A stretch of 64,000 nucleotides of DNA from Rhizobium sp. G21 (GTDB lineage Bacteria; Pseudomonadota; Alphaproteobacteria; Rhizobiales; Rhizobiaceae): contig NZ_JACFXW010000001.1 in NCBI RefSeq assembly GCF_014158035.1, positions 1,674,001 to 1,738,000 of the forward strand, given 5' to 3'. Positions 13,497 through 31,754 of the stretch are shown in pieces. The notes beneath the pieces were generated by a model that was given only the letters and a program-made list of their open reading frames with translations, did not search any database and was not told the DNA's origin. A program made the position numbers and the translations under genes. Numbering within the stretch: position 1 is the stretch's first letter; the number at the start of each line of letters is the position of its first letter.

Positions 13497-13521
13497 GGAA
13501 CAGGCGCGCCGGCCGAACGTT
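13497..13521 (+). promoter_or_regulatory. EcfG-type (general stress) promoter of treZ
   Basis: GGAAC at 13497-13501, a 16-bp spacer, then CGTT at 13518-13521: an exact match to the alphaproteobacterial sigma-EcfG consensus GGAAC-N16-CGTT. It ends 36 bp before the proposed treZ start. Confidence 0.85.
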
Positions 13522-13557
13522 TCACCCTCGATTGCTCACCCAAGGAGGCATGAACCA

Positions 13558-15338
13558 TTGTCCCACTTCGCCTTTGGTCCCATCATTCACGAACAGGGCG
13601 TCCTTTTCAGGCTCTGGGCGCCGCTTCAGGAAAAGATCGGGCTCCGGATCGACGAGGGGCCTCTTGTGCCGATGACCGCGGCGGATGGCGGATGGCGCAT
13701 TCTGGATGTGAAGGATGCGGGGGCCGGAACACGGTATCGATTTGTGCTCGAGGACGGCCTGGAGATACCGGACCCTGCATCGCGTCACCAGCCCGACGGG
13801 CTGAAGGGCCCGAGCGAAGTCGTCGACCCTCGCACTACCTTTGGCGTACGCCGGATTGGCGCGGTCGGCCATGGGAGGACAGTGTCGTCTACGAGTTGCA
13901 TGTCGGCGCGTTCACGCCGGAGGGCACGTTCAAGTCGGCGGCGGCGAAATTGCCTTATCTCGCCGATCTCGGCGTCACCGTCATTCAGCTGATGCCGCTC
14001 GCCGAATTCCCAGGTCGCTGGGGATGGGGTTATGACGGCGTGCTGCATTACGCGCCCTATTCCGGATACGGCGCGCCGGACGATCTCAAGGCCTTCGTCG
14101 ACGAAGCCCACCGCCACGGGCTCTCCGTCATGCTCGATGTCGTCTACAACCACTTCGGACCGGACGGCAATTATATGGGTCTCTACGCGCCGCTGTTCAC
14201 CGAGCGACATCACACTCCATGGGGAGCCGGCATCAATTTCGACGACACCGATTCCAAACTGGTGCGCGATTATGTGATCCAGAACGCGATATATTGGATC
14301 GATAAATTCCGCATGGACGGGCTGAGGCTGGACGCGGTCCACGCAATCGACGACACCAGCGACGAGCATCTTCTTGCCGAACTGGCGCGTCGCGTGCGCG
14401 CAGCCGCGGGCGACAGGATCGTCCACCTCGTCGTCGAAAACGAGCATAACGATCCCACCCTTCTCGAACGGGACGGCTCCGGGATGCCGCTCGCCTACAC
14501 CGCGCAATGGAACGACGACATCCATCACGCCCTGCATGTGGCGGCGACGGGCGAGACGGTCGGCTATTACGCCGATTATCAGGCGCTGCCCCAGGATCTC
14601 GGTCGGGCGCTTACCGAGGGCTTCATCTATCAGGGGCAGGAGATGCCCTACCGAGGTTCGACGAGAGGCGGCGCGAGTGCGCATCTGCCCGCGCAGGCTT
14701 TCATCGCCTTCATTCAGAACCACGACCAGATCGGCAATCGCGCCTTCGGCGACCGTTTGGTCGATTTCGCGGAAGACAATGCCCTCAGCGCCATTGCCGC
14801 AATCTATCTTCTGTCGCCCCAGATCCCGATGTTGTTCATGGGCGAAGAATGGGCGTCCGCCCGCCCGTTTCCCTATTTCTGCGATTTCGATGACGATCTG
14901 AACCAGAAGGTGCGCGAAGGTCGCGGCAAGGAGATGTCGCGGCTGCCGGGCTTCGAGCCTGAACATGCCGAAAAGATCCCCGACCCCCACATCCCGGAAG
15001 AGACGTTTCTGTCGGCAAAGGTGGATTGGGAGGAATGCGCGGACGACCTCGCCGGAAACTCCCTGGACTTCTACAAAACTCTGTTGGCGATCCGGCGAGA
15101 AAAAGTGATCCCTCTTCTCAAGCAGACTCTCCGGACGGCGAACTATCAGACCGAGGCGACACGGCTCGACGTCTCGTGGCGTTACGACAACGCCGTTCTA
15201 AGCTTGAGCGTCAATCTCGGCGCCGACGCCGTGCCGGCGCGCGAAGAAACAAAGGGCGACATCCTCTGGCGAAGCCATCGAGACACCGACGGCTTGCGGG
15301 CGCCTTGGTCGGTCATCTGGACGATCGAGGCCGCTTGA
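13558..15338 (+). pseudogene. treZ: Malto-oligosyltrehalose trehalohydrolase, frameshifted
   Basis: TreZ releases trehalose from maltooligosyl-trehalose. Correcting one frameshift gives 593 residues, family length. The N-terminal domain reads SHFAFGPIIHEQGVLFRLWAP to VVDP; the frame is then lost at 13828-13830 (one C missing after gaccc) and resumes as HYLWRTPDWRGRPWE. In the catalytic barrel the nucleophile Asp is about residue 259 (GLRLDAVHAI), the acid Glu about 294 (VVENEHND), and FIQNHDQIGN follows. The start is a TTG at 13558, 9 bp after AAGGAGG; an ATG at 13550 is in another frame. No treY is in the window. The break may be a sequencing error. Confidence 0.88.
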
Positions 15339-15341
15339 ATC

Positions 15342-15479
15342 TTACTCGGTGCTGGCGGTCGGCTCCGGATCGATGGCGGGGTCGCCGCCGATGAGGCTGG
15401 AAAGGCCGTAGATGACGCCCGCCCAGACGAGCAGCGACAGGTTAACCACCAGGATCAGATAGCCCATCCGTCGCGTCAT
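15342..15479 (-). CDS. Small single-pass membrane protein (hypothetical)
   Basis: A 45-residue frame beginning MTRRMGYLILVVNLSLLVWA, with one hydrophobic segment at about residues 6-30 and a short acidic/proline tail (DPAIDPEPTASTE). The composition is what a real short membrane protein looks like, and the frame ends just after treZ on the opposite strand. The ribosome-binding site is weak. No family recognised. Confidence 0.45.
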   Translation of the reverse strand: MTRRMGYLILVVNLSLLVWAGVIYGLSSLIGGDPAIDPEPTASTE

Positions 15480-15534
15480 GCGTTCTGCACCTGTCTCTGT
15501 CCTCATCGTCCCAGCCACCGAGCGGCTCTTCTGC

Positions 15535-15559
15535 GGAACATTCCGGGCGGCGAAAGGTT
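15535..15559 (+). promoter_or_regulatory. Near-match EcfG promoter of the SDR gene
   Basis: GGAAC at 15535-15539, 16-bp spacer, then GGTT instead of CGTT at 15556-15559; it ends 31 bp before the SDR start, the same spacing as the perfect sites. One mismatch, so inferred. Confidence 0.5.
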
Positions 15560-15590
15560 CAAGGTAGGCAGGAATTACAGGAGCGAAAAG

Positions 15591-16454
15591 ATGTCCGACA
15601 CCCGCCGCCCCGAGCCTCCCTATCCCAAGCAGGAACAGGCCCCGCCCGGCGTGACGCCGAAGATGGATCCGCCGCCGGATCATGGTGAACACAGTTATCG
15701 CGGAAATGGGCGACTTGAAGGCAAGATCGCGCTGATCACCGGCGGAGATTCCGGGATCGGCCGCGCGATCGCCATCGCCTTCGCTCGCGAGGGCGCCGAC
15801 GTGGCGATTTCCTATCTTCAGGAGCATCGAGATGCGGAAGACACTGCGCGCCTGATCGAGGAAGCGGGACGCAAGGCGCTGACCATCCCCGGCGATGTGT
15901 CGAAGGAAGATCATTGCGCCGGCGTGGTCGCAAAGGTGGTCGAGGAACTGGGCGGGATCGACATTCTGGTCAACAACGCCGCCTTCCAACGCACCTATGC
16001 CGATATCGCCGACATAACGGCGGAGGAATGGGACACGACATTCCGCACCAACATCTACGCGCCATTCTTTCTTTCAAAAGCCGCGATCCCGCACATGAAG
16101 CCGGGTTCGTCGATCATCAACACGACGTCGATCCAGTCCAAACAGCCATCGCCACAGCTGCTGGCCTATGCGTCCACGAAGGGCGCCATCCTCAATTTCA
16201 CCGCCGGCCTGTCCGCCATGGTGGCCGACAAGGGCATTCGTGTGAATGCGGTGGCGCCGGGCCCCATCTGGACGCCTCTCATTCCCTCGACCATGCCGCA
16301 GGAAAAGGTCGAGAATTTCGGCAAGCAGACGGCGCTGGGTCGGGCAGGCCAGCCGGCGGAACTCGCCGGCGCCTATGTGCTGCTCGCCTCCGATCTGGGC
16401 AGCTACATGACCGGCGCCGTCATTCCCGTCACCGGCGGCGAAATGATGATCTGA
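15591..16454 (+). CDS. SDR family oxidoreductase (YghA/YdaD type)
   Basis: 287-residue short-chain dehydrogenase. A 45-residue proline-rich N-terminal extension (PPYPKQEQAPPGVTPKMDPP) precedes the Rossmann motif ITGGDSGIGRAIAIAFAREG; NNAAFQ, the Ser of TTSIQ and YASTK complete the active site. The extension is typical of the YghA-like group, often tied to general stress. Substrate unknown. It sits between treZ and glgE on the same strand, 27 bp before glgE, and has its own EcfG-like promoter. Confidence 0.9.
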   Translation: MSDTRRPEPPYPKQEQAPPGVTPKMDPPPDHGEHSYRGNGRLEGKIALITGGDSGIGRAIAIAFAREGADVAISYLQEHRDAEDTARLIEEAGRKALTIPGDVSKEDHCAGVVAKVVEELGGIDILVNNAAFQRTYADIADITAEEWDTTFRTNIYAPFFLSKAAIPHMKPGSSIINTTSIQSKQPSPQLLAYASTKGAILNFTAGLSAMVADKGIRVNAVAPGPIWTPLIPSTMPQEKVENFGKQTALGRAGQPAELAGAYVLLASDLGSYMTGAVIPVTGGEMMI

Positions 16455-16481
16455 CGTCCACCCCGACAGTTTGGACTTGCC

Positions 16482-19400
16482 ATGACACATTCGACTTCCA
16501 TATCCGCTTCCCGTGAAGCGGCGGCTCCACCGCGAATCTATTTCGTCCATCCTCTGGCGTTGAACGGACTTGACGAGTGGCGGGGCGTATTCGCCCATGC
16601 CCGGGCGCTCGGCTTCGATACGGTGCTGACTGCGCCGATCTTTACGCGCCCCGATGGCGGCAGCGTGTTCGTGTCTGCCGATTTCGGCCGTGTGGATCCT
16701 GCGCTCAGGCTCGGCGACGACGCCGATGCGGCGCTGAAGCATCTTTCGGAGGCGGCGGCGGAAGAAGGCGTGCGGCTGATGATCGACATTGTAGTCGACG
16801 TGGAGCCGGACCCGCGCGGACCAAGACCCTTCGACCCCCGGCTCGGTCCAATGCGACGCGGCGGACACGAGGCGGCGCTCGACGAAAGTGAAGCGGCGGC
16901 GCAGTGGAGCAAACGATTGGCTCGCTTCGTCGAGGCCGGACTTTCCGGTTTTCGCTGCATGGGTCTAGGCCGGTCGAGCGCGCTGTTCTGGCGAGAGGTC
17001 ATCGATCGTGTCCGCGCCAGTCGCGACGACGCCCTGTTCCTAGCCTGGACGCCCGGAACGGATTTCGAGATCCGCCGCAATCTTCGGCAGACCGGTTTCG
17101 ACGGGTGTTTTTCGTCTTTCGCCTGGTGGGATCTCGAGTCGCCCTGGTTCGCCGAGGAGTACGAACTTCAACGCGCCCTGGGCTGGCAGATCGCATTTCC
17201 GGAAGCGCCTTACGGCAAACGCCTGGCGCATGGCGCGGAAAGCCGTGAAATCCTGGAGCGATCGGCGCTGCGCGCGCTGCGGCTCGCAGACCAGGTCGGC
17301 GATGGGCTGATGATCCCTATGGGATTCGAATATGGCGCGACACGACCGCTCGACCCCTTGAGCGGCGTCGGCGCCGACCCAACAAGCGCAGAACGCTCCG
17401 CCTCCTTCAATCTGACCGCGGATCTGCGCGGCTTGAATCAGACGGCAAAACAGTCCCTCGGCAGATCAAAAGGTCCGTTGCAGTTTCTCGCCGCGTCGGG
17501 AACCCCGTGCCTGACGTTGCTCAGAACCGACGGCCCGAGCTTTTCCGCCTCGGATATGTTGACGGCGATCGTGGTCAATCGCGATCTCCGGCGCGGCGTT
17601 TCCGCGCCGTTCCATGCGCTGCGCGAAGCTTCGTCCGGATTTCTTCCGCTGAAGTCCGGCGGCGGTGACGGCCCGGCGCTGAATGCGCTTGCGCGGCTTC
17701 GTCCCGGTGACCTCCGCATCTATGTCGGACAGCGCGGTCAGCCGATCCGTGACGCGGTTGCCGCGAAGGGCGCGCTCGCGGCGGGCGACGATCCGCGACT
17801 GGCGATCGAGGCGGTGACGCCGAGCGTCGATGGCGGTCGTTTTCCGGTAAAGCGCATCGTCGGTTCACTCGTCCATGTCGAGGCAGACATTTTCGGCGAT
17901 GGTCACGATCCGTTGTCCGCCGCGCTGCTTTGGCGCGCCGCGGATGATACGGAGTGGCGGGAGACGCCGATGACGCTCGTGGTCAATGATCGCTGGACCG
18001 CTGAATTCACCCCGCAACGCCTGGGCCGGCACGAATTCATGATAGAGGCCTGGCGCAATCCCTTCGCGATCTATCGTTACGAACTTCAGAAGAAGCACGA
18101 GGCGCGACTGGATCTCACTCTCGAGCTGCAGGAAGGCGCCACATTGATCCGCAAGGCGGAGGAACAGGCGGAGGATCCACTGAAATCTCGCCTGCGCGCC
18201 TTCATAGAGCGCCTCGCTCAGGCCGAGAGCGGCGAACGTGTATCGCTCCTGCTGTCGGACAATGCGTTCAAGCTGATGGCGGAGGCGGATGCCCGACCCT
18301 TCCGGACTCGCTCGGCCGTTATTCCGCTCGACGCCGAGCGTCGCGAGGCGGCTTTTGCAAGCTGGTACCAGATCTTTCCGCGATCGCAGAGCGGCGATCC
18401 GCATCGGCACGGCACATTCGACGATGTGATCAAACGCCTGCCCGCCATCCGCGACATGGGTTTCGATGTCCTCTATTTCCCGCCAATTCATCCTCGATCG
18501 GCGCAACCAACCGCAAGGGACGCAACAATTCGCTGTCCGCGGGCCCAGACGATCCCGGCAGCCCCTACGCCATCGGATCGCCGGATGGAGGTCATGACGC
18601 CATCCATCCCGAACTCGGCACGTTCGATGATTTTCGTCGTCTTGTTTCAGCGGCGCGGGATCATGGACTGGAAATCGCGCTCGATCTCGCCATCCAGGCC
18701 TCGCCCGACCATCCATGGCTCAAAGAGCATCGCGGCTGGTTCGACTGGCGGCCCGACGGAACCGTGCGTTACGCCGAAAACCCGCCGAAGAAGTATGAAG
18801 ACATCGTCAATGTCGATTTCTATGGCCCAGACGCCGTGCCCTCGCTGTGGACAACGTTGCGCGACATCGTCCAGAAATGGATCGACAACGGCGTTACGCT
18901 GTTCCGCGTCGACAATCCACACACCAAGCCCTTTCCCTTTTGGGAATGGCTGATCGCCGACATCCGCAATCGCCATCCCGAGGCGGTGTTTCTCTCCGAG
19001 GCCTTCACGAAGCCGAAGGTCATGTATCGGCTGGCGAAAATCGGCTTTTCGCAATCCTACACCTATTTCACCTGGCGAAACCTGAAATGGGAGCTGGAAG
19101 ACTATATGCGCGAATTGACGGAGAAACCGCCGCGCGACTTCTTCCGCCCGCACTTCTTCGTCAACACCCATGACATCAATCCGGATTTTCTCCAGAACGC
19201 GCCGCGGCCGGCCTATCTGATCCGCGCCGCGCTCGCATCCACGCTCTCCGGGCTCTGGGGCGTCTATAACGGCTTCGAACTCTGCGAGGGCCGCCCCGAC
19301 GCCAAGCGCAAGGAATATGCCGACAGCGAGAAATACGAGATCCGCGCTTGGGATTATGACCGGCCCGGCAACATCAAACGTGAAATCGCCATGCTTAATC

Positions 19401-19717
19401 GCATCCGGCGGGAGAACCCGGCGCTGCATTCGCATCTCGGCCTGACCCTGCTGGCTTCCTCCAACGACAATGTGATGTTTTTCGAAAAAGCCAGCGAAGG
19501 CCGCGAAAACGTCTTGCTGATCGCCGTGAGCCTCGATCCGCATGCGGTCCAGGAAGCGGATGTCGAAATACCCCTCTGGAAGTGGAACCTCCCGGACGAT
19601 GGCGCGCTTTCGATGGAGGACCTGATCGGCGGCCATCGCTTCGCATGGCGCGGAAAATGGCAACGGCTGCGGCTCGACCCGCAAGCTTTGCCCTTCTCGA
19701 TCTGGCGCGTACGGTGA
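16482..19717 (+). pseudogene. glgE: Alpha-1,4-glucan:maltose-1-phosphate maltosyltransferase, frameshifted
   Basis: GlgE extends alpha-1,4-glucan with maltose from maltose 1-phosphate. The corrected product is about 1,078 residues, longer than the roughly 660-700 of classical GlgE because residues about 1-430 form an extra amylase-like barrel (FVHPLALNGLDEWRGVFAHA). The GlgE part starts near residue 440 (VEAVTPSVDGGRFPVKRIVG); the nucleophile Asp is about 811 ([12 protein letters not shown]), the acid Glu about 840 ([11 protein letters not shown]). The frame breaks at 18492-18496: IHP runs into nonsense while [11 protein letters not shown] continues in the next frame. Removing two bases (CT) restores family spacing better than adding one. 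May be assembly error. Confidence 0.87.
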
Positions 19718-19727: not shown

Positions 19728-22700
19728 ATGGACGAACATCTCGATCCGCTCTGGTATAAAGACGCAATCATCTACCAGCTGCACATCAAATCCTTCTGCG
19801 ACGGAAATGGCGACGGCATCGGCGATTTCGCCGGCCTGAACCAGAAACTCGACCATATCGCATCGCTCGGCGCGACCGCCATCTGGCTCCTGCCATTCTT
19901 CCCCTCGCCTCGCCGCGACGATGGCTACGACATCGCCGATTACGGAAATGTCAGCCCCGACTACGGAACGATGGAGGATTTCCGCGCCTTCGTAGACGCT
20001 GCGCATGAGCGAGATTTGAAGGTGATCATAGAGTTGGTCATCAACCACACATCCGATCAGCATCCCTGGTTCCAGCGGGCGCGACAATCGCCGCCGGGCT
20101 CTCCCGAACGCGATTTCTATGTCTGGTCCGACACCGACCAGAAGTTCCCGGAAACGCGGATCATTTTTCTCGACACCGAAAAGTCCAACTGGACATGGGA
20201 CACGCAGGCCGGCGCCTATTACTGGCACCGCTTTTACTCGCATCAGCCGGATCTGAATTTCGACAATCCCCTGGTAATGGAAGAGCTTCTCAGCGTCATG
20301 CGCTTCTGGCTGGAGACCGGTATCGATGGTTTCCGCCTCGACGCCATTCCCTATCTCGTCGAGCGAGAAGGAACCAACAACGAGAACCTGCCGGAAACCC
20401 ACGACATCCTGCGCCGCATTCGCGCTGCGCTCGATTCCACCCATCCCGGCGTGATGCTGCTGGCCGAGGCCAATCAGTGGCCGGAGGACACGCGCGACTA
20501 TTTCGGCGAAGGCGACGAGTGCCACATGGCGTTCCACTTCCCGCTGATGCCGCGCATGTATATGGCGATCGCCAAGGAGGACCGCTTCCCGATCACCGAC
20601 ATCATGCGCCAGACGCCGGAAATTCCGGACAATTGCCAATGGGCGATCTTTCTGCGCAATCACGACGAACTGACGCTCGAAATGGTGACCGACGCCGAGC
20701 GCGACTATCTGTGGAACATCTACGCCGCCGATCGCCGCGCCCGCATCAATCTCGGCATTCGCCGACGGCTTGCGCCGCTGATGGAACGCGATCGCCGCCG
20801 CATCGAGCTGATGAACGCGCTGCTGCTGTCGATGCCGGGAACACCGGTCATCTATTACGGCGACGAGATCGGCATGGGCGACAATATCTATCTCGGCGAC
20901 CGGGACGGCGTGCGAACGCCGATGCAATGGTCGCCGGACCGCAACGGGGGCTTCTCGCGGGCCGACCCGGCGCGTCTGGTGTTGCCCGTGATCATGGACC
21001 CGCTCTACGGCTACGAGTCGCTGAATGTCGAGGCCCAAAGCGTCGATGCGCATTCGCTGCTCAACTGGTCGCGGCGGATGCTGGCGCTCAGGCGCAAGCA
21101 CAATGCCTTCGGGCGCGGCAAGCTGACCTTTTTGACGCCGCAGAATCGCCGCGTGCTGGCTTATCTGCGCGAACATGAAGGCGAGACCATTCTGTGCGTC
21201 AACAATCTGTCGCGGCTGCCGCAAGCGGTGGAGCTCGACCTCTCCGCCTTCCAGGGGCGCGTTCCAGTGGAGCTGACGGGGATGTCGCCCTTCCCACCGA
21301 TCGGCCAACTGACCTATCTGTTGACGCTGCCGCCCTATGGTTTCTATTGGTTCCAACTCGCGGCAGAAGCCGAAGGACCGGTGTGGCGGACCGAGCCGCC
21401 GGAGCAATTGCCCGATTTCACGACATTGGTGATGCGCCGCAACTTGGTCGACCTGCTCGATGATCAAAAGAGCATGACGGCGCTGAGCCGCGACATCCTG
21501 CCCGCCTATCTCGGCAAAAGGCGCTGGTTCGGCTCCAAGGGCGAACGGATGGTGAGCGCCGAAATCGTCGCCGCCAGCGAAATGCCGTTCTCCAACGACC
21601 TCGTGCTGGCGGAACTGCGCGTACAGCTGGAAGGTCATGCGGAGACCTATCTTCTGCCGCTGGCGTTGGCCTGGGACGATACGCAGCCGCAGGCGCTGGC
21701 CCAGCAATTGGCGCTGGCCCGCGTGCGACATGTCCGAAGGGTCGGCTTCCTCACCGATGGTTTCGCCGCCGAGGCCCTGGCGCGCGGCGTGGTTCGTGGC
21801 TTGTGCGAGCGCTCCGTGCTGTCGAGCAAGACGGGCTCTCTGGAATTTCTCGGCACCGAAGCGCTCGACTGCATGAGCCTTGTCGACGACATGCCGATCC
21901 GCTGGCTGTCGGCGGAACAATCCAACAGTTCTCTGATCCTCGGCGACATGGCGATGATCAAGCTCATCCGGCATATTTTTCCGGGCATCCACCCCGAAGT
22001 CGAGATGACCAGGCATCTGACCAAGATCGGCTACGCCAACACGCCGCCGCTTCTCGGCGAGGTCGCGCGCATCGACGCCGAGGGCGAGCGCTACACGTTG
22101 ATGATCGTCCAAGGCGCCATTCGAAATCAGGGCGACGCCTGGACCTGGATGCTGAACGAACTCCGGCATCGCCTGGAGGACGTGATCGTCAACACTTCCG
22201 GCGAAGAGGAGACCAGTGAGGAGGAGCGAGATCCGTTCAGCGGCTTGATCGCCGTGGCCGGCGTCGTCGGCAAGCGGCTGGGCGAGCTGCATGCGGCGCT
22301 GGCGCTGCCGAGCGACGACCCGGATTTTGCGCCTTCGACGGCAGGCGAAGCCGAGGCGGAAACCTGGCGGAAAACGCTGCAGAAGGAACTCGGCGATTGC
22401 CTCGATTTGTTGTCGGATGTCAGGCCGCATCTCGATCCGGCTTGCGCCCAATATATCGATCCGCTGCTGGAACAACGAAATAGGCTGATGGAGGCGGCGT
22501 CCGCTCTGTCACGCTCCCTCGTCGGGGCGCTCGAGACGAGAGTGCATGGCGATTTCCATCTCGGCCAGGTGCTCGTCGCCGAAGACGATGTCTACATCAT
22601 CGACTTCGAAGGCGAACCGGCGCGGGCGCTTTCGGAACGGCGCGCGAAAACCAATCCGCTCCGCGATGTCGCGGGACTTCTGCGCTCGATCAGCTATCTC

Positions 22701-23006
22701 GCCGCCTCGGCCGGATCGGACCGCGACACGGCGGCGGAAACCAGCGAGGATCATCGGACCAAGCTGACCGAACAGTTTGAACGTGAGGCGGAAACCGCAT
22801 TCCTCGACCATTACGCCGCTGCGCTCGAAGGCAACGAGGCGCTCGCGCTGTCGCCCGAACGGCGAGCCCGCCTGATCGACCTGTTCCTGCTCGAAAAGGC
22901 GGCCTACGAAATCGGCTATGAGGCCCGCAACCGGCCCCAATGGCTTCCCATTCCGCTCAAGGGCTTCTCGGCCATTGCCAACAGACTGATGGAGGCGCAT
23001 CGATGA
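19728..23006 (+). CDS. treS: Trehalose synthase / maltokinase fusion
   Basis: 1,092-residue two-domain enzyme. Residues about 1-550 are TreS, which interconverts trehalose and maltose: [20 protein letters not shown] at the start, nucleophile Asp near 205 ([13 protein letters not shown]), Glu near 247 ([11 protein letters not shown]) and [12 protein letters not shown]. Residues about 580-1092 are a maltokinase with the [12 protein letters not shown] catalytic loop and IDFEGEP metal site, making maltose 1-phosphate for GlgE. Fusing the two channels trehalose into the GlgE pathway. This is the only intact glucan gene here. It follows glgE by 10 bp and its TGA overlaps the glgB ATG. Confidence 0.95.
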
Positions 23007-25209
23007 CAGCGCAGAACTTTCTCGGCGCGATCGATCCGCATGCGATCGCAGCGCTGGTCGACGGCCGTCATGGCGACCCGTTTTCCATTCTCGGCAAACA
23101 CAAGGTCGGCGAGCAAACCGTGCTGCGGGCTTTGCTGCCCGGGGCGATGCGTGTCGATATCCTCGACGCCGACACCGGCGCGGAAGTAGGTCAGGCGGAA
23201 ATCGTTCACCCCGGCGGCCTTTTCGCCGGACCGATGCAGCCGGTCAATCGCTATGTCATGCGCATCCACTGGCCGGACGCGACGCAGGAAACCGAAGACC
23301 CTTACTCCTTCGGCCTGCTGCTCGGCGAGCTCGACCTGCATCTCCTCAGCCAGGGCACGCATTACGATCTTGGGCGGACGCTCGGCGCGACGGTCACCGA
23401 TGTCGGCGGCGTGCCCGGCGTGCGCTTCGCCGTTTGGGCTCCCAATGCGCAACGCGTTTCCGTGGTCGGCGATTTCAACAGCTGGGACGGACGGCGTCAT
23501 CCGATGCGGCTGCGGCGCGACGCCGGGATCTGGGAATTGTTCGTGCCGCGCCTCGGTCCGGGCGACCGCTACAAATACGAGATCATCGCCCCCTCGGGCG
23601 AAATCCTGCCGCAAAAGGCCGATCCGGTCGCCCGCTCCAGCGAAGCCGCGCCCGCCACGGCCTCGATCGTCGTCTCCAGCACCCCTTTTCCTGGACCGAC
23701 GAGGCATGGATGCGCAACAAGCGCGAACATCGCGACCTCAACGCGCCGATGTCGATCTACGAAGTCCATCTCGCATCCTGGCTCAGGGTTGCCGAGGAGG
23801 GCAATCGCTCGCTCAACTGGATCGAGCTGGCGCAACGGCTGATCCCCTATGTTCAGGATCTCGGCTTCACGCATATCGAAATGCTGCCGATCATGGAGCA
23901 TCCCTTCGGCGGCTCCTGGGGTTATCAGCCGCTCGGGCTCTTTTCGCCGACCGGCCGACACGGAACGCCGGAAGATTTCGCCTTTTTCGTCGACCGCTGC
24001 CACGAGGCGGGCATCGGCGTTCTGCTCGATTGGGTGCCGGCACATTTCCCGACCGACGTCTGGGGCTTGGCGCGCTTCGACGGCACCGCGCTCTATGAGC
24101 ATGAAGATCCGCGCGAAGGCTTTCATCGCGACTGGAACACGCTGATCTACAATCTCGGCCGCAACGAAGTGAAAGGTTTCCTGATCGCCTCAGCGCTGGA
24201 ATGGCTGGATCGCTTCCATATCGACGGACTGCGCGTCGATGCGGTCGCTTCGATGCTCTACCGCGACTATTCGCGCGACGCCGGCGAATGGATTCCCAAC
24301 CAATATGGCGGGCGCGAAAATCTCGAAGCCGTCGAATTCTTCAAGTATCTCAACAGCATCATTCGCCAGCGCGCGCCGCACGCCATCACGATCGCCGAGG
24401 AATCGACCGCCTGGCCGGGGGTGACGGCGCCGGTCGACCAAGGGGGCCTCGGCTTCGATTTCAAGTGGAACATGGGCTGGATGCACGACACGCTCGAATA
24501 TATGCAGAAGGACCCGATCTATCGCGCCTATCATCAGGGGCAGATGACCTTCGGCATGGTCTATCAGTATACCGAGCATTTCGTGTTGCCGCTGTCGCAT
24601 GACGAGGTGGTGCATGGCAAAGGCTCGCTCTATGGAAAGATGCCCGGCGACGACTGGCAGAAGCTGGCCAATCTTCGCGCCTATTACGGGTTCATGTGGG
24701 CGCATCCCGGCAAGAAACTGATGTTCATGGGCGGCGAACTCGGTCAACGCACCGAGTGGAGCCATGATGGCTCGGTGCATTGGGATCTCCTCGACGAGCG
24801 CGGTCACGGCGGCCTTCAGCGCGCCGTTGCCGATCTCAACCGCATTTATGCGCAGGAGCCGGCGCTGCAGTTCGGCGACCTCGACAGTCGCGGCTTCGAA
24901 TGGGCGGCCACCGACGATGCGCAGAATTCCGTCATCGCCATGCTGCGTTACTCGGAAGATAGAAACGAGGCGGTGCTCGCGGTCTCGAACTTCACGCCAA
25001 CGCCAAAGTCCGGCTACCGCATCGGCGTTCCCTTCCCCGGCCGTTGGACTGTGGTCTTCAACAGCGACGCGGAAATTTATGGCGGATCGAACCAGGGCGT
25101 CGTCGAAGCCTGGGCGGATCAGGAAGCGAGCCATGGGCGCGACTTCTCGATCGTGCTGACGCTTCCGCCGCTGGCGACCGTATATCTGAAGGGATCGCCC
25201 GAAAGCTGA
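23003..25209 (+). pseudogene. glgB: 1,4-alpha-glucan branching enzyme, frameshifted
   Basis: GlgB moves alpha-1,4 segments to alpha-1,6 branches. Corrected length 735 residues, normal. An N-terminal domain, then a CBM48-like module ([20 protein letters not shown]), then the catalytic barrel with Asp near 413 ([11 protein letters not shown]), Glu near 466 (ITIAEEST) and [12 protein letters not shown]. The frame is lost at 23682-23689 (acccctttt): adding one T restores [10 protein letters not shown]. The start overlaps the treS stop (ATGA). As sequenced, translation would end at 23842, inside the catalytic domain. May be sequencing error. Confidence 0.88.
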
Positions 25210-25287: not shown

Positions 25288-26121
25288 ATGGGCATCAGGA
25301 CGGCTTCGGAGCCCAGTCTCCGGCACTTCCTAACCGGCCTCGGCCGTGCGGCAGGCGGCGCGATCATTTTTGCGCTGCCGATGCTGATGACCATGGAAAT
25401 GTGGGCGCTGGGCTTTACGCTCGACGTCTGGAAGCTTTGCCTGCTGCTGGTCGCCACGATCCCGGTTCTGCTCGGCCTGTCCTACTATGGCGGCTTCCGG
25501 TGTACTTTTTCGTTGAAGGACGATCTCGCGGACGTCTTTGTCGGCATGTTGATCGCCGGACTGATGTCGACCTTCGTGTTGTGGTTGTTCGGCGTCCTGA
25601 CTCTGGAAACTTCGCTCCGGGAGGCTATCGGCAAGATCGCCGTTCAAGTCGTGCCCGGCGGCATCGGCGCCATGCTGGCGCGCAGCCAGTTCGGCGGGGA
25701 CTCCGCGACCGACGATCTCCGGCGCGAAAGATCGTCCTATTGGGGCGAGCTCTTCATGTTGGCGACGGGCGCGCTCTTCCTCTCGTTCAACGTCGCGCCT
25801 ACCGAAGAGATTATCCTCATCGCCTTTCAGATGGACGCCTGGCGGGAGGCGGCGCTCGCGCTGGCGTCGCTGCTCCTCATGCACGTCTTCGTCTACGTCT
25901 CCAACTTCAAAGGCGGCGATGAGCGCGGCGCCGCCTCGCATCTCTCGATGTTCCTGCGCTTCAGCCTAACGGGCTACGTGCTGTCGCTTCTGATCAGCAT
26001 GGCGATGTTGTGGATCTTCGGACGCAGCGACGGCTTGAGCTTCTATTCTTTCCTGAGCGCCGCGCTGGTGCTCGGATTTCCCGCCTCCATCGGCGCGGCG
26101 GCGGCGCGCCTCGTGCTCTAG
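25288..26121 (+). CDS. TIGR02587 family integral membrane protein
   Basis: 277 residues from the ATG at 25288 (AGGGGAG upstream). About seven or eight hydrophobic segments; the conserved stretch NVAPTEEIILIAFQM in the middle is typical of the TIGR02587 family of predicted membrane proteins. These are regularly encoded next to TIGR02588 proteins, as here (24-bp gap). Function unknown; the EcfG promoter suggests a stress role. The frame also extends to a TTG at 25243, inside the promoter, which I reject. Confidence 0.88.
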   Translation: MGIRTASEPSLRHFLTGLGRAAGGAIIFALPMLMTMEMWALGFTLDVWKLCLLLVATIPVLLGLSYYGGFRCTFSLKDDLADVFVGMLIAGLMSTFVLWLFGVLTLETSLREAIGKIAVQVVPGGIGAMLARSQFGGDSATDDLRRERSSYWGELFMLATGALFLSFNVAPTEEIILIAFQMDAWREAALALASLLLMHVFVYVSNFKGGDERGAASHLSMFLRFSLTGYVLSLLISMAMLWIFGRSDGLSFYSFLSAALVLGFPASIGAAAARLVL

Positions 26122-26145
26122 ACGAGTTCAAAGGAGATCGACATC

Positions 26146-26552
26146 ATGACGGATAAGTCCGAAGATCAGGAAGACCTGCCCGACGACACGCCTTTCGCGG
26201 AGTGGTTGCTCGCCGCAATTTCGGCCTTATTGTTCATCGGCGGCTTCGCCTATCTCGTCGCCCATGGGGTTGCCGGCGGCGATGGCCCGGCTGATCTCCG
26301 GATCGTGCATATGTTGGCCCAGCAGGATCCGCGTCGGGTGGATTTCACCCTCGTCAACATGGGCCAGAAGACCGCGGCGCAGGTTCAGGTCAAGGGTCAG
26401 GTGCTGGAGAAGAACGGCGCGGTGGCGGAGGAGAGCCATGCCGTGATCGATTATGCGCCCGAGGGCTCTAGCGTTCAGGGGAGCCTGGCATTCTATCGCG
26501 ACATCAGGGGCTCGAATTTCGCATCACGACCGAAGGCTTCAACGAACCGTAG
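26146..26552 (+). pseudogene. TIGR02588 family protein, frameshifted near its end
   Basis: One membrane segment (residues about 18-40, EWLLAAISALLFIGGFAYLV) followed by a periplasmic domain with VDFTLVNMGQKTAAQVQVKG. The frame shifts at the G run 26507-26510: as read, it wanders on to 26715, but one added G gives GLEFRITTEGFNEP and a stop at 26550-26552, total 135 residues. Start fixed by AAGGAG 10 bp before the ATG. Partner of the TIGR02587 membrane protein; function unknown. May be sequencing error. Confidence 0.8.
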
Positions 26553-26962
26553 AGTGAAACATGCCGCAGCGGGCGCAGCCTATTGCCTCGATACCGAAGC
26601 CCGCTTCACGTCTGATGGAAACCTGAGAGACGATTGGCTCCGGAGCACCTGTCGGATTGGAAAGGCGCGGCGAATAGGCATCACTTCGCTACCTCGCCTC
26701 CCAGAGCTATACTGAACGCGTCGGGTTCCAGCTGCAACGCCATCGGAGGTGAAGAAAAGGAAGGATCGTTCTCCCTCGCGCCGGGCCAGGGGGAGTCCAA
26801 ACCCGGCCAAGATCCGCAATCTACGCGCGGGAGAACGATCAGCAAGCAGGAAGCTCGGGGGAACAAGGGGGCAGTCCGCTTCCTGCGGGGCTCAACGAGA
26901 TCGAACAGGAAAGGTTCCCCGGCGCCGCGAGAATATAGCGATTTATCCAGTTTATTTTTTGA
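26553..26962. other. Intergenic region with a nested inverted repeat
   Basis: 410 bases without a convincing gene. The long frames crossing it (for example 26634-27134) have random arginine/proline-rich translations. It contains the nested inverted repeat at 26764-26840. Confidence 0.5.
26764..26840. repeat. Nested inverted repeat (possible structured RNA or miniature element)
   Basis: GATCGTTCTCCC at 26764-26775 and its exact complement GGGAGAACGATC at 26829-26840 enclose an inner pair GCCGGG (26780-26785) / CCCGGC (26802-26807). Together they can fold into a stem-loop of about 77 nt. No T run follows on either strand. Confidence 0.55.
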
Positions 26963-27343
26963 TCATTGTCCCGCCGCGCGCCTCGGGGCATCCTGCTCGA
27001 CCTGGCTAGGAATATCGTCGACCGGACCGGACAGGTATTCATCGTCGTCTTGGACTCTCGATTCGTCTTCAGCCTCCGACTGTGTCACGGGTTCGACCCG
27101 GCTCGGATCATCCGCCTGCACCGCAATCGCCTGATCGACGTCTTCATCGATCTCTGGGCCGTCGGCGGGGTCAGGATCTACGGCGTTTTGCATCTTCAGC
27201 TGCGCCACCACGCCGTCTATCGCGCCGAGGGCCTCGTCCGTGCTCCATCCGGCGGCGTTGGCATTGGCGATCATTGTCTGGATCGCGCGATCGAACGCCC
27301 CGGTCAGCGCCTTCATGCGCCTTTCATTCAAGCCTTTGGTCAT
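26963..27343 (-). CDS. Acidic hypothetical protein
   Basis: 126 residues from the ATG at 27343, which has AAAGGAGAGG just upstream. The N-terminal half (LNERRMKALTGAFDRAIQTM, GWSTDEALGAIDGVVAQ) looks like a folded helical domain; the C-terminal half is very acidic (Asp/Glu-rich) and probably disordered. Family not recognised. Divergent from the BON-domain gene, with an EcfG-like site on its own strand. Confidence 0.7.
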   Translation of the reverse strand: MTKGLNERRMKALTGAFDRAIQTMIANANAAGWSTDEALGAIDGVVAQLKMQNAVDPDPADGPEIDEDVDQAIAVQADDPSRVEPVTQSEAEDESRVQDDDEYLSGPVDDIPSQVEQDAPRRAAGQ

Positions 27344-27364
27344 TTGCCTCTCCTTTTGCCACAT

Positions 27365-27389
27365 CAACTCCGCAGGATTTTCGAAGTTC
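27365..27389 (-). promoter_or_regulatory. Near-match EcfG promoter of the acidic protein gene
   Basis: On the minus strand GGAAC (27389-27385), 16-bp spacer, AGTT (27368-27365); one mismatch in the -10. It ends 21 bp before the ATG at 27343. Confidence 0.45.
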
Positions 27390-27407
27390 CGGAGGAGGCG
27401 ATCTGGC

Positions 27408-27433
27408 GGGAACCGAAGAGGAGGCAAAGCGGT
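27408..27433 (+). promoter_or_regulatory. Near-match EcfG promoter of the BON-domain gene
   Basis: GGAAC at 27408-27412 followed, 17 bp later, by GGTT (27430-27433); one mismatch. It lies 55 bp before the BON gene start and back-to-back with the minus-strand site at 27365-27389. Confidence 0.4.
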
Positions 27434-27488
27434 TCTACCTATGGAAAGACCGCGCCGACGACGGTCTCGATGAGTAAGAGGAAATCCT

Positions 27489-28127
27489 ATGGCGAGCAAA
27501 GACGATTTTCGAAACGACCGAAATCGCGAACGGACCTATCGAGACCGTGAGCGCTTCGACGTCGACCCGTTCTATGGGGCCCGTGGCTATCCCGATTGGG
27601 ATCGCACCGGCTCCTTCCGTGAACGCGAGCGCGAGGATGTGAATTTCGCTGGCGATTGGCGCCAGAAATCTCCCGGCTTCGGCCGCAATGACGCTGGCTA
27701 TGCGCAACCCGAATATCGCTATCGGGAACGGGATAGAGACGATAACGGCCGCCGCTATGGCGATCGCGAGGAAAAGCGCGATTTCATCGATCGCGCTTCG
27801 GACGAGGTCGCCTCATGGTTTGGCGATGAAAACGCCGAACGTCGTCGCGAACAGGACAAGCATCGCGGCAAGGGCCCCAAAGGCTATATACGCCGCGACG
27901 AGCGCATCCTGGAAGACGTCAACGACCGTCTGATGCAGGATCCCTACCTCGATGCGTCCGAGATCGAAGTGATGGTCGCTCAGGCTGAGGTGACGCTGAC
28001 CGGCACTGTGGAAAGCCGCCAGGACAAGCGCCGGGCCGAGGATCTCGCCGATTCCGTCTCCGGCGTCGCGCATGTCCAGAACAACATCCGTGTCAAAACG
28101 GGAACAATCGCCAATATCGTGAGTTGA
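27489..28127 (+). CDS. BON domain-containing protein
   Basis: 212 residues. The first 130 are extremely charged and Arg/Asp/Tyr-rich (for example DRNRERTYRDRERFDVDPF), likely disordered. Residues about 140-212 are a BON domain: DERILEDVNDRLMQDPYLDA, IEVMVAQAEVTLTGTVESR, VSGVAHVQNNIRV. BON domains bind phospholipid or act in osmotic-stress envelope proteins; there is no signal peptide, so the location is unclear. The EcfG-like promoter and neighbours suggest a stress role. Confidence 0.88.
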   Translation: MASKDDFRNDRNRERTYRDRERFDVDPFYGARGYPDWDRTGSFREREREDVNFAGDWRQKSPGFGRNDAGYAQPEYRYRERDRDDNGRRYGDREEKRDFIDRASDEVASWFGDENAERRREQDKHRGKGPKGYIRRDERILEDVNDRLMQDPYLDASEIEVMVAQAEVTLTGTVESRQDKRRAEDLADSVSGVAHVQNNIRVKTGTIANIVS

Positions 28128-28138
28128 GGCGTTTGTTC

Positions 28139-28159: not shown

Positions 28160-28174
28160 TCCCAGGAGCGAGAC

Positions 28175-28363: not shown

Positions 28364-28402
28364 CCCGCGACAAGTTGTGCGTAACGTCGGGAAGGAAACA
28401 TT

Positions 28403-28588
28403 ATGACTGGCCTGTATCCCCAAATCATCTGGGACGTCATCGATCGCAGCATCACCATCATCGATGGCGATCGCGTCGTCGACCTGCGCGAGCGTTTTAG
28501 GAACCGAGAAGACGGCATTCGCGCGGCAGAGGCCTATTGCCGCCGTCACATGCGGCGTGAGGCCGACGCAATCCGTGTCGCCGGCTGA
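28403..28588 (+). CDS. Small hypothetical protein
   Basis: 61 residues from an ATG with GGAAGG just upstream: MTGLYPQIIWDVIDRSITII followed by a charged helical-looking half (RERFRNREDGIRAAEAYCRR). Composition and ribosome-binding site support a real gene downstream of the DUF3008 gene. No family recognised. Its last 43 bp overlap, tail to tail, the minus-strand gene at 28546-28836. Confidence 0.6.
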   Translation: MTGLYPQIIWDVIDRSITIIDGDRVVDLRERFRNREDGIRAAEAYCRRHMRREADAIRVAG

Positions 28589-28836
28589 ACCGACAGCATT
28601 TCCCGATTTTCGGGAAAGTAGAATCGCGCCGCGACCCAAGCGAAAGTTTTGAGCCGGGCGCGGCAGACGATCCCGCGATCATAGGCGCGGATCAGCAGCG
28701 ACACGAATTTTTCCTGCCGCTCCCTGCATGCCGGATACCATTGCTCCGTCTCCAACTCTCGGATGACGCTGCGCAAGAAGGAGACTTCCGAGCCCGCAAA
28801 AACGCCTGGACTATGGATCTGGGTGTGTAGCGACAT
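28546..28836 (-). CDS. Hypothetical protein
   Basis: 96 residues; the ATG at 28836 is preceded by GGAGGACG. The middle reads SFLRSVIRELETEQWYPACR, EKFVSLLIRAYDRGIV and FAWVAARFYF, an amphipathic-helix pattern expected of a real soluble protein. No family recognised with confidence. Converges on, and overlaps, the small gene ending at 28588. Confidence 0.6.
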   Translation of the reverse strand: MSLHTQIHSPGVFAGSEVSFLRSVIRELETEQWYPACRERQEKFVSLLIRAYDRGIVCRARLKTFAWVAARFYFPENREMLSVQPATRIASASRRM

Positions 28837-28998
28837 TCATCGTCCTCCACCGCCTCAGGCGAAACATGCTACGGCAGCGCTTCGTATTTGTGGCTCATTT
28901 ATGTCGCAAGTGAAATAGCAAATATTAGCCCCCTGCATTTTGAGGGGTTTTCCCCATTCGCACTTCTTCGCGCGCGAGGAAGAACACTGGACGCAGGA

Positions 28999-29796
28999 CT
29001 ATGACTTCCTGGACGATCCGGGCTCTGCCATATTGCGATGGGCGCTCGCCAGCACGCCCGACGGCGTGACGTTGGCGATCGCCGCCTGCAACTTGTTCTT
29101 GACGCCGCTGACAATATCGCCCTCGCCATTCATCATGGCGCGGAAACCGGTCTCCGCCACGTCGGCGGGGTCGTCTTTCTCGGATTGGCCGATATTCGTA
29201 TCCAGCAGTCCCGCACGCTCGAAGAACCGCGTTTCGGTGGCTCCCGGCATCAGGCAGGTGACGGTGACGCTGGTGTCCTTCAGCTCTTCGCGCAGCGCGA
29301 AGGAGAAGCTGTTCAGGAACGCCTTCGACGCATTGTAGACCGCCTGGAAGGATCCGGGCATGAAGCCGGCAATCGACCCGGTTATCAGGATGCGGCCGTG
29401 TCGCTGCGCCCGCATCATGCCGCCGACGGCGTGGAGGAGTTCGAGCGTGCCGGTGACGTTGGTGTCGATCACATGCCTGACATCGACGATGTCCTGATCC
29501 AGAAAGGCATGGCCCAGGCCGCAGCCGGCATTGGCCATCAGGAGTTCCGGCTCAGCGCGGTTGGCGGCGATCTGGTCCACCAGTTGCGCCACGCCGGCCG
29601 AGGTCAAGAGATCCGCCATGATGGAGGTGACGGTCGCGCCACTGGCGCGGAGATCTTCGGCTGCGGTGTGAATCGCCTCCTCATCGGCGGCGATCAGCAA
29701 GTCATAGCCTTCGCGGCCGGCGACCCGGGCCAGTTCCAGGCCAATGCCGGACGATGCGCCGGTGACGATAGCGAGTTTTCCCATGCCGATCGGCAT
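28999..29796 (-). CDS. SDR family oxidoreductase
   Basis: 265-residue short-chain dehydrogenase: LAIVTGASSGIGLELARVAG at residues 8-27, NAGCG, catalytic Ser in ITGSIAGF and YNASKAF. The ATG at 29796 has AAGGAG 4 bp upstream and gives a normal N-terminus; the longer frame to 30087 lies within the preceding gene. It is 11 bp downstream of the alcohol dehydrogenase gene, so the two are co-transcribed. Substrate unknown. Confidence 0.9.
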   Translation of the reverse strand: MPIGMGKLAIVTGASSGIGLELARVAGREGYDLLIAADEEAIHTAAEDLRASGATVTSIMADLLTSAGVAQLVDQIAANRAEPELLMANAGCGLGHAFLDQDIVDVRHVIDTNVTGTLELLHAVGGMMRAQRHGRILITGSIAGFMPGSFQAVYNASKAFLNSFSFALREELKDTSVTVTCLMPGATETRFFERAGLLDTNIGQSEKDDPADVAETGFRAMMNGEGDIVSGVKNKLQAAIANVTPSGVLASAHRNMAEPGSSRKS

Positions 29797-29807
29797 GTTC
29801 GTTCTCC

Positions 29808-30977
29808 TTATGGCTTGAGGACGACTTTGATGCAGCCATCCTTCTTGTCGCGGAACGTCTTGTAGAGTTCGGGGCCGTCTTCGAGAGAACCGCGATGGGT
29901 GATCACGAAGGACGGATCGATCTCGCCCTCGGCGATACGGCGCATCAATTCCGGCAGATAGCGTTGCACCGGCGTCTGGGCCATGCGGAAGGTCAGGCCG
30001 CGATTGATCGCCGAGCCGAACGGGATCTTGTCGAGGAAGCCGCCATAAACGCCGACGATCGACACGGTTCCAAAATTGCGGCAGCAATGAATGGCCTGGC
30101 GCAGCACATGCGGCCGGTCGGTGCCCATGAAGGTGGCGACCTTGATGCGGTCGACGACCGAGTCGAAGCTCGCCACCGGCGAGGCTTCCGTGCCGACGGC
30201 GTCGATGCAGGCGTCGGCGCCGCGACCGCGGGTCAGTTCCATGATCCGGTCATAGATGTCTTCATCCATGAAATTGAGCGTGACGGCGCCGGCGGCGCGG
30301 GCAAGCTCAAGGCGCTCGGCGACGGTGTCGATGGCGATGACGCGCTCCGCGCCGAGCAGGGAGGCCGAGCGGATCGCCATCTGGCCGACAGGACCGCAGC
30401 CCCAGATCGCGATCGTGTCGGCCGGCTGGATGTCGCAGAAATCGGCGGCCATATAGCCCGTGGGGAAGATGTCGGAAAGGAACAGGACTTGCTCGTCCGT
30501 CAGCCCGTCCGGCACCTTGATCGGTCCGACATCGGCATAGGGCACACGCAGATATTCGGCCTGCCCGCCCGAATAGCCGCCCAGCAGATGAGAATAGCCG
30601 AACAGGCCGGCGGGCGAATTGCCCCACATGGTCCGCGCCTTCTCGTGATCGGGATTGGAGCGTTCGCAGGCGGAGAAATAACCGCGCTTGCAGAAGAAAC
30701 ACTCGCCGCAGGAAATGGTGAAGGGAACCACGACGCGATCGCCGACCTTGAGCGTGGTGTTGTCTTTGCCGACCTCGACCACTTCGCCCATGGTCTCGTG
30801 GCCGACGATGTCGCCGCTATGCATATCGGGGATCATCCCGTCGAAGATATGCAGGTCGGAGCCGCAGATGGCGCAGGCCGTGACCTTGATGATGGCGTCG
30901 CGGCCATGCTGGATTTTGGGGTCGGGCACGCTTTCGCAGCGGATGTCGGATTTCCCATGCCAGGTCAGGGCTTTCAT
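29808..30977 (-). CDS. Zinc-dependent alcohol dehydrogenase (glutathione-dependent formaldehyde dehydrogenase-like)
   Basis: 389 residues, medium-chain dehydrogenase. Catalytic zinc ligands in [11 protein letters not shown] and GHETMGEV, structural-zinc cysteines in [16 protein letters not shown], Rossmann motif [12 protein letters not shown]. Such proteins oxidise alcohols or formaldehyde; the exact substrate is not readable. Of two adjacent ATGs I prefer 30977, at better spacing from GAGGAG than 30980. First gene of a two-gene operon with the SDR, with an EcfG-like promoter upstream. Confidence 0.9.
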
Positions 30978-31021
30978 CATCTTCTCCTCGGTTGATGAAC
31001 GGCGAAGGCTCGAGACGGTCC

Positions 31022-31046
31022 AACCGGGCAATCGTGAAAGCGTTCC
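31022..31046 (-). promoter_or_regulatory. Near-match EcfG promoter of the alcohol dehydrogenase operon
   Basis: Minus strand GGAAC (31046-31042), 16-bp spacer, GGTT (31025-31022), 44 bp before the ATG at 30977. The -10 variant GGTT is the same as at the SDR gene 15591. Confidence 0.5.
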
Positions 31047-31073
31047 CATCGAGATCAGCATCATGCCGATACG

Positions 31074-31103
31074 AAAAAGCGCGCCGGGGAACGGCGCGCT
31101 TTT
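31074..31103 (-). terminator. Rho-independent terminator of the DUF2171 gene
   Basis: Minus strand: 12-bp perfect stem AAAAGCGCGCCG/CGGCGCGCTTTT with a 5-nt loop, running into TTTTT, about 20 bp after the DUF2171 stop. Clear intrinsic terminator. Confidence 0.9.
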
Positions 31104-31124
31104 GCAGGCTGAGCTGGAAACGGA

Positions 31125-31382
31125 TCAGTGGACGCGGGAGCCCGACTGTTCTTCTTCCTGCATCATCGCCTTGTCGGCGGAGACAGACAGATGAACACGG
31201 TTTTCCTGGACTGTCTCGACCAGCGACATTTCGATGAAATGGTGGTGGCCTTCATGTCCGGCGCCGTGGCTGTCAGCCTTGGTGAGCTTGATCCGATCGC
31301 CTTCGACGCGGTCGACCGTGCCGACATGCCGGCCGTCTTTGCCGATCACTTCCGCATGTTCTCTGATGTCGTGAATTGTCAT
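31125..31382 (-). CDS. DUF2171 domain-containing protein
   Basis: 85 residues: IREHAEVIGKDGRHVGTVDR, VEGDRIKLTKADSHGAGHEG, HHFIEMSLVETV. This is the DUF2171 (PRC-barrel-like) family, common among stress-induced small proteins of Rhizobiales; activity unknown. Start preceded by AAGGAG. Own terminator and an EcfG-like site upstream, so it is a single-gene unit. Confidence 0.88.
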   Translation of the reverse strand: MTIHDIREHAEVIGKDGRHVGTVDRVEGDRIKLTKADSHGAGHEGHHHFIEMSLVETVQENRVHLSVSADKAMMQEEEQSGSRVH

Positions 31383-31413
31383 GATCGTTCTCCTTGATGG
31401 TTCGCATCAGGAA

Positions 31414-31438
31414 AACGCGGAACGGCTCGTTTAGATCC
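31414..31438 (-). promoter_or_regulatory. Near-match EcfG promoter of the DUF2171 gene
   Basis: Minus strand GGATC (31438-31434; one mismatch to GGAAC), 16-bp spacer, exact CGTT (31417-31414), 31 bp before the start codon. Confidence 0.45.
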
Positions 31439-31445
31439 AATCCGG

Positions 31446-31703
31446 TCAAATGATGGTGGGACGGCCGCCATTCTTGGGGATGAATTCGAGCGTCAGCCGG
31501 ATCTCGACGATCGGGCGGCGGATCTCGTCGAACACTTCGACCGCGATCATGTTGAGCGGCTCACCCGGCAATCCATCCAGAGCCATCTCGGCGAGCGCCT
31601 TGCGGCCTTCTTCGACGGCTTGGGAGTCGTTGTCGAACTCGTAGGCCTTTTCGGCCGGCGACGCGCCGTCGCGGTCCAACACGGAAAAGAAATATTTGGG
31701 CAT
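31446..31703 (-). CDS. DUF6894 family protein
   Basis: 85 residues beginning MPKYFFSVLDRDGA, with the acidic YEFDNDSQAVEEGRKALAEM stretch and a C-terminal VEIRLTLEFIPKN; matches the small DUF6894 family abundant in Rhizobiales, function unknown. The ATG at 31703 gives the family length; the extension to 31856 runs into cutC on the other frame. An EcfG-like site lies 26 bp upstream. Confidence 0.85.
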   Translation of the reverse strand: MPKYFFSVLDRDGASPAEKAYEFDNDSQAVEEGRKALAEMALDGLPGEPLNMIAVEVFDEIRRPIVEIRLTLEFIPKNGGRPTII

Positions 31704-31729
31704 GGGCGACACTCCTGGTATCGCCCGTA

Positions 31730-31754
31730 AACACATGACCTTGAAGGCGGTTCC
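31730..31754 (-). promoter_or_regulatory. Near-match EcfG promoter of the DUF6894 gene
   Basis: Minus strand GGAAC (31754-31750), 16-bp spacer, TGTT (31733-31730); one mismatch. It begins just past the cutC stop. Confidence 0.45.

Follow-up and report, generated by a model that had tools for sequence, protein, structure and literature searches.

It is quite probable that an 18-kb island of trehalose, glucan and small-protein genes in Rhizobium sp. G21 is a segment of the general stress regulon of the sigma factor EcfG. Nine conserved promoter-like sites stand there in front of protein genes and of one predicted small RNA, whose target messages would be shared with a second predicted RNA, of the GsrN-like kind, at the core locus of the stress response. 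The common action of both RNAs is proposed because they share a C-rich loop pattern. The island lies in a window of 64,000 nucleotides (C1:1674001-1738000), the whole stretch of DNA analysed here, within a genome of 5.45 Mb in 5 contigs with a completeness of 86%. A previous sequence-only reading had already assigned the island to the EcfG regulon, an assignment now supported by the core regulatory genes, by the upstream sites and by their conservation in two relatives, while the RNA had been overlooked.

In the established PhyR-NepR-EcfG switch, stress yields phosphorylated PhyR, which removes NepR from EcfG. A genome lacking these three genes would have spoken against the regulon, and all three were found at C1:1648.8-1652.9 kb (locus L032), with nepR at C1:1652190 and ecfG about 35 kb upstream of treZ. 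PhyR reached 359 bits with the model NF006623 (cut-off 240), and the extracytoplasmic function (ECF) sigma factor adjoining nepR reached 335 bits with NF009169 (cut-off 321), a model that says only 'RNA polymerase sigma factor', the name EcfG resting on the place of the gene beside nepR and phyR. A receiver-HisKA_2 kinase (HisKA_2/HWE-type) is also encoded at this locus. Moreover, the motif given for EcfG of R. etli in the part of PMC3892343 that was consulted, GGAAC-N16-CGTT, occurs here as an exact site 48 bp before nepR and with one mismatch 42 bp before phyR.

Exact copies of this motif had been placed 36 bp before treZ, 43 bp before the TIGR02587 gene and, beyond the island, at 46506, and all of them are present, the last one 30 bp ahead of the ATG at 46561. 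The total of three exact sites has to be raised to four (13497 and 25220 on the plus strand, 26894 on the minus strand, 46506 on the plus strand), and the rule that exact sites lie 30-45 bp from a start codon is true for three of them, the site at 26894-26918 minus being near no gene start. The chance expectation of about 0.5 exact sites was correct, with an average of 0.52 in shuffled windows, and four sites were reached in 2 of 100 shuffles. The six sites reported with one mismatch were likewise all found, with a shift of one position for those of the acidic-protein and BON genes (true coordinates 27366 and 27409), the latter being best read as GGAAC-N17-GGTT. The eight sites of island genes are located 22-54 bp before likely start codons, as is the full set of three exact and six one-mismatch sites, and one further exact site stands 3 bp before the stretch modelled as an RNA.

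Comparison with G002 and G004, two genomes of the same genus, sets the island sites apart from chance matches, a distinction for which the motif alone is weak evidence. The island keeps the same gene order in both relatives, and upstream alignments revealed that all eight island sites are retained amid drifting flanks and spacers. When the site at 26894-26918 minus is added, the -35 pentamer of the resulting nine sites is identical in the two relatives at 90 of 90 positions and the final GTT at 54 of 54, compared with 184 of 258 spacer positions, counted in pairs of equal length only; as the nine sites were chosen after their conservation had been seen and were aligned by their own ends, these figures describe a pattern and are no blind test. 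The pentamer is GGATC at the DUF2171 gene and GGAAC at the other eight sites, and the base preceding GTT varies among C, G, A and T. Six other one-mismatch matches fall within the island, four of which are lost in G002 (18881, 19965, 23182 and 30724), and the remaining two (19584 and 28101), both within coding sequence, are kept together with their surroundings.

The fourth exact site had seemed likely to be a chance match, since no gene stands behind it and it had escaped an exact-motif scan of the relatives. This explanation was rejected after a position-by-position comparison, which showed the site retained with one mismatch, as GGAAC-N16-AGTT in G002 and as GGAAC-N16-GGTT in G004, with spacers identical at 7 and 8 of 16 positions. 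Immediately behind it, the minus strand of 26753-26890 is strongly conserved in the three genomes and is predicted to fold into a 9-bp stem closing a loop region with two C-tracts, followed by a long hairpin and a U-rich tail; in G002 the predicted fold places one C-tract in a 5-nt loop and the second in a bulge. Folding z-scores are -4.5, -5.4 and -6.0, and in each of the three genomes none of 200 shuffled sequences folded as well. The consensus structure holds 43 pairs, three of them kept by two-sided changes and five broken in one sequence. A search of the window with the 4227 models of Rfam gave two tRNAs at the gathering cut-off, and no match between 26600 and 27000 with E-values up to 5.

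A second structured RNA (z -4.1) is preceded by an exact site at the core locus (L032, 4675-4699 minus), where it sits between the side of a DUF883 gene and phyR and the side of a glucose/sorbosone dehydrogenase gene, nepR and ecfG. This core RNA is nearly identical in G002 and G004, with the same flanking genes. The loop pattern GCCCC-N-T-NN-T-N-CCCCCGA has exactly two matches in the G21 genome, the island RNA and the core RNA, both behind exact EcfG sites and each carried by a different stem. G004 also has two matches, again the island and core RNAs, and three occur in G002 and one in G005, where the additional matches have no EcfG-like site; the pattern is missing in 57 of 61 genomes and its reversed control in all 61. 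Two of these eight matches, at the related loci L138 and L143, were rejected as further candidates, with no EcfG-like site in the preceding 160 nt and no two-hairpin fold.

A model of the core RNA (R2) had matches in 4 of 247 genomes of the family. With it an additional RNA was detected in a different genus (32.8 bits), which has a C-rich loop and an exact site in front and lies at a distance of 2.8 kb to phyR and 3.9 kb to ecfG, in a stretch where nepR was unmatched. On five rhizobial loci with phyR and nepR, R2 gave only weak matches of 11.6-12.5 bits. When C-tracts were searched behind EcfG-like sites, 11 matches were obtained, and none with the reversed site pattern; they correspond to seven places of known RNAs (some loci overlap), the RNA of genome G090 and three coding-like stretches.

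Both RNAs recall GsrN of Caulobacter and the GsrN-like RNAs of Rhizobiaceae, including ReC64 (PMC5869019, PMC3892343 and PMC2881028, each consulted in part), a likeness drawn from their published descriptions. Outside Caulobacteraceae, GsrN-like RNAs were recognised by their closeness to the phyR-ecfG locus, according to the sections of PMC5869019 available to us, and the nearest tested case, ReC64 of R. etli, is described in what was seen of PMC3892343 as an EcfG1-dependent RNA near phyR. The core RNA, which shares the place beside phyR, nepR and ecfG, is by these descriptions a predicted GsrN-like RNA. The island RNA has a predicted EcfG-type promoter and an exposed C-rich loop near its 5' end, as GsrN does, and differs in that it is the second RNA with the same loop on another stem; because it lies 50 kb from the core locus, we do not file it as GsrN and see it as a sibling that would work in a similar way. 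The consulted parts of those three papers make no mention of two such RNAs in one genome, and our literature searches, which reached the texts in part, found no published description of a second EcfG-driven RNA sharing the loop of the core RNA.

In the mechanism that we propose, EcfG freed from NepR would transcribe treZ, the SDR-glgE-treS-glgB genes and the genes of TIGR02587 and its TIGR02588-like partner, together with the acidic-protein, BON, alcohol dehydrogenase, DUF2171 and DUF6894 genes and both RNAs. The enzymes would then shift glucose units among trehalose, maltose-1-phosphate and glucan, the membrane protein and the small proteins would protect the envelope, and both RNAs might pair through their C-tracts with G-rich leaders of messenger RNAs.

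The membrane protein family TIGR02587 (DUF2391) is patchy, with members in 13 of 61 genomes (G21 included), and 53 loci were grouped into 40 clusters, the first locus of each being counted; L046, L047 and L074 (TIGR02587 in two pieces in G005) were excluded from this count. Plasmid loci were represented by 18 of 120 matching records, picked for spread, and the protein alignment comprised 18 of the 21 planned sequences. An exact site with a spacer of 16 or 17 lies on the sense strand within 400 bp upstream of the gene in 8 of 40 clusters, compared with none on the opposite strand and none for the reversed pattern on either strand (Fisher 8.6e-6, controls pooled), and within 1500 bp in 13 of 40, compared with 3, 1 and 1 in the controls (Fisher 9.1e-6, also pooled). 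The eight clusters belong to Hyphomicrobiales, Caulobacterales, Hyphomonadales and Rhodobacterales. Both nepR and phyR stand at most about 10 kb from TIGR02587 in five of the 23 loci examined, these five being rhizobial. Beyond TIGR02587 toward phyR, the loci L052, L053, L054, L055 and L069 hold 6-8 exact sites per 9-10 kb versus 0-1 of the reversed pattern, and several of these sites precede very small open frames. In this line, the earlier suggestion of a stress role for TIGR02587 and TIGR02588 gains backing, as regards TIGR02587, from EcfG-type sites and general stress response core neighbours in other lineages.

Other arrangements around this gene were also observed. In Brevundimonas guildfordensis (L059, 9616-10777), a site, a PQ-loop (SemiSWEET-like) gene and TIGR02587 follow each other in the same direction, with only 5-8 bp between the EcfG-type site and the probable start of the PQ-loop gene. 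A Sinorhizobium plasmid has the order treS, glgB, a regulator, a small gene and TIGR02587, and a plasmid of Rhizobium sp. Q54 (L106, 4117-5816) carries genes for an RNA polymerase sigma factor, a 70-aa protein, TIGR02587 and TIGR02588 in consecutive order, possibly a mobile EcfG-type module. The predicted structure of TIGR02587 (confidence score, pLDDT, of 82) had no convincing match among solved structures, and a literature search for papers mentioning 'TIGR02587' or 'DUF2391' found none; as far as such searches show, the link of this family with EcfG-type sites is new.

Features of the window considered in this work, with the sites in the upper part and the genes in the lower part (positions are those of the window).
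Feature	Positions	Strand	Remarks
Exact EcfG-type promoter-like site, treZ	13497..13521	+	kept in G002 (N17) and G004 (N16)
GGAAC-N16-GGTT site before SDR-glgE-treS-glgB	15535..15559	+	conserved
Exact EcfG-type site before TIGR02587	25220..25244	+	conserved
Fourth exact EcfG-type site, promoter-like, of the predicted RNA	26894..26918	-	kept as GGAAC-N16-[AG]GTT
GGAAC-N16-AGTT site before acidic protein	27366..27390	-	GGTT in G002 and G004
GGAAC-N17-GGTT site before BON gene	27409..27434	+	conserved
GGAAC-N16-GGTT site before alcohol dehydrogenase	31022..31046	-	conserved
GGATC-N16-CGTT site before DUF2171	31414..31438	-	GGATC in all three genomes
GGAAC-N16-TGTT site before DUF6894	31730..31754	-	conserved
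Exact site outside the island, before 82-aa protein	46506..46530	+	ATG 46561
treZ, malto-oligosyltrehalose trehalohydrolase	13558..15338	+	TIGR02402; TTG start; two frames
Short-chain dehydrogenase/reductase (SDR) oxidoreductase	15591..16454	+	family match
glgE, maltose-1-phosphate maltosyltransferase	16482..19717	+	PF11896, PF21702; two frames
treS fused to putative maltokinase	19728..23006	+	TIGR02456, TIGR02457
glgB, branching enzyme	22940..25209	+	family match; two frames
TIGR02587 / DUF2391 membrane protein	25288..26121	+	ATG 25288; 293.9 bits, cut-off 183.7
TIGR02588-like protein	26146..26715	+	58.7 bits, under cut-off of 95
Predicted small RNA	26753..26890	-	about 138 nt; approximate ends
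Acidic protein, 126 aa	26963..27343	-	open reading frame
SWFGD/BON-domain protein	27489..28127	+	family match
Zinc-type alcohol dehydrogenase-like protein	29808..30977	-	longer open frame scanned
DUF2171 protein	31125..31382	-	family match
DUF6894 protein	31446..31703	-	longer open frame scanned

Among the genes of the table, glgE, treS and glgB lack sites of their own and follow the SDR gene closely (27 bp from the SDR stop to glgE and 10 bp from glgE to treS, with the glgB frame beginning within treS), so that the simplest reading is a single SDR-glgE-treS-glgB transcript from the SDR site. The TIGR02588-like protein resembles its relatives only to about 26550, aligning over some 125 residues. 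No NCBIfam or Pfam match was obtained for the acidic protein, scanned as the longer open frame 26963-27499, nor for the 82-aa protein behind the 46506 site (46506-46809), and a literature search on the small DUF families brought up nothing on this topic. In this assembly treZ, glgE and glgB are split over two frames; their pieces share one frame in G002, and those of treZ also in G004. Because further split genes are found nearby (32449-33389 and 33489-34621), such splits of several genes within about 20 kb are probably assembly errors. In G004 glgE is missing its C-terminal part and treS its N-terminal part, there is no second SDR gene (L073, 3396-6920 and 12758-12946), and the alcohol dehydrogenase matches over 64 residues only, yet the promoter-like site is retained. 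Two similar porin-like genes stand in tandem immediately before treZ (10567-13005), a repeat that is perhaps the cause of the G002 and G004 contigs starting near treZ.

Several observations weigh against the proposed picture. A genome-wide scan yielded 64 exact sites and 46 matches of the reversed pattern, a mild enrichment, because of which single motif matches prove little. This count is what favours reading the island matches as chance hits before housekeeping genes, an idea that we regard as most improbable in view of nine sites staying intact while their spacers drift and of the loss in G002 of most other one-mismatch matches of the island. As to TIGR02587, 32 of 40 clusters, that of S. 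meliloti pSymA included (gene at 160.5-161.3 kb of NC_003037), have no exact site within 400 bp, and the clusters share descent (three of the eight with a site are from Brevundimonas), so the Fisher values are only a guide. An ECF sigma factor other than the one at the core locus, for instance a paralogue of EcfG, could also recognise the sites. Genomes often hold several EcfG copies, the regulons of EcfG1 and EcfG2 in R. etli overlap in part (PMC3892343, from the part seen), and the sigma gene of the Rhizobium plasmid lies two genes upstream of TIGR02587; we nevertheless hold such a paralogue to be unlikely, since the sigma factor beside nepR and phyR has a site of this kind before its own operon.

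The island RNA was found by BLAST in 3 of 9 genomes of the genus, as a single copy in each, and by a covariance model with strict filters in 3 of 247 genomes of the family, its covariation resting on three sequences. The model of the island RNA matches the core RNA weakly, with 27.1 bits in G002, 22.9 in G21 and 21.3 in G004 versus 15.1 for the next unrelated sequence, the score coming largely from the C-rich loop and from the paired hairpin at the 3' end, and the reverse search with the core-RNA model did not list the island RNA. Neither loop pairs with the 18 leaders of the window above chance, the best result being equalled by 38 of 200 shuffles, and with the katG leaders of the three genomes 69-92 of 300 shuffles were as good for the core loop and 215-271 of 300 for the island loop, the 150 nt before the katG match holding no run of four G. 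As the loops pair with leaders no better than shuffled ones, it is from architecture alone that the RNA part of the mechanism is argued. An account in which the island genes are under EcfG control and 26753-26890 is merely the terminator of the acidic-protein or the TIGR02588-like gene, near an EcfG-like site arisen by chance, would fit an element placed between the ends of convergent genes and the terminator-like look of its second hairpin and U-rich tail. We consider this unlikely, given a site kept in three genomes with spacers alike at only 7-8 of 16 positions, an upstream C-rich-loop hairpin that is, besides the second hairpin, the most conserved part and that a terminator would not need, and a loop pattern with just one other genomic copy, which an exact EcfG site likewise precedes. 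That the minus strand of this stretch encodes a short protein is improbable, even with one frame free of stops across it in all three genomes: in G21 this frame contains neither ATG nor GTG and a stop ends it immediately upstream, the sole start common to the three genomes (TTG, ATG and ATG) falls inside the second hairpin, and the peptides diverge, with a 1-nt deletion in G002 shifting the frame. A coding role is thus unlikely, and the predicted, non-coding RNA within an EcfG-controlled island stays our preferred interpretation.

Compared with the sigma-EcfG (RpoE2/SigT) regulons described in Alphaproteobacteria, as far as the consulted texts go, the PhyR-NepR-EcfG genes, the motif and the trehalose genes are shared, control by EcfG of trehalose genes being known for treS and the otsA/otsB pathway in B. 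diazoefficiens (PMC8092242, in the part seen). Unlike those regulons, the 18-kb block brings together treZ, the genes of the GlgE pathway, the pair of TIGR02587 and its partner, small DUF genes and a predicted RNA. The members of the GlgE pathway (TreS-maltokinase, GlgE and GlgB) stand all side by side here, with the difference that they lie behind an EcfG-type site and adjoin treZ. The TIGR02587/TIGR02588 unit is represented by a TIGR02587 protein above the curated cut-off and, downstream, by a partner below it.

On a broader scale, we lean slightly towards the view that twin EcfG-driven RNAs, with one C-rich seed loop on unrelated stems, tune one set of G-rich messages from two stress loci, and that TIGR02587 and TIGR02588 make up a general-stress membrane unit across several alphaproteobacterial orders. 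For the TIGR02587/DUF2391 family of unknown function and its partner, the EcfG-type sites in four alphaproteobacterial orders point to the general stress response as a context in which a role can be tested. The island RNA, as a putative second stress RNA with a GsrN-like loop pattern, would also allow targets of such RNAs in Rhizobiaceae to be searched for with two baits, alike in their loops and unlike in their stems.

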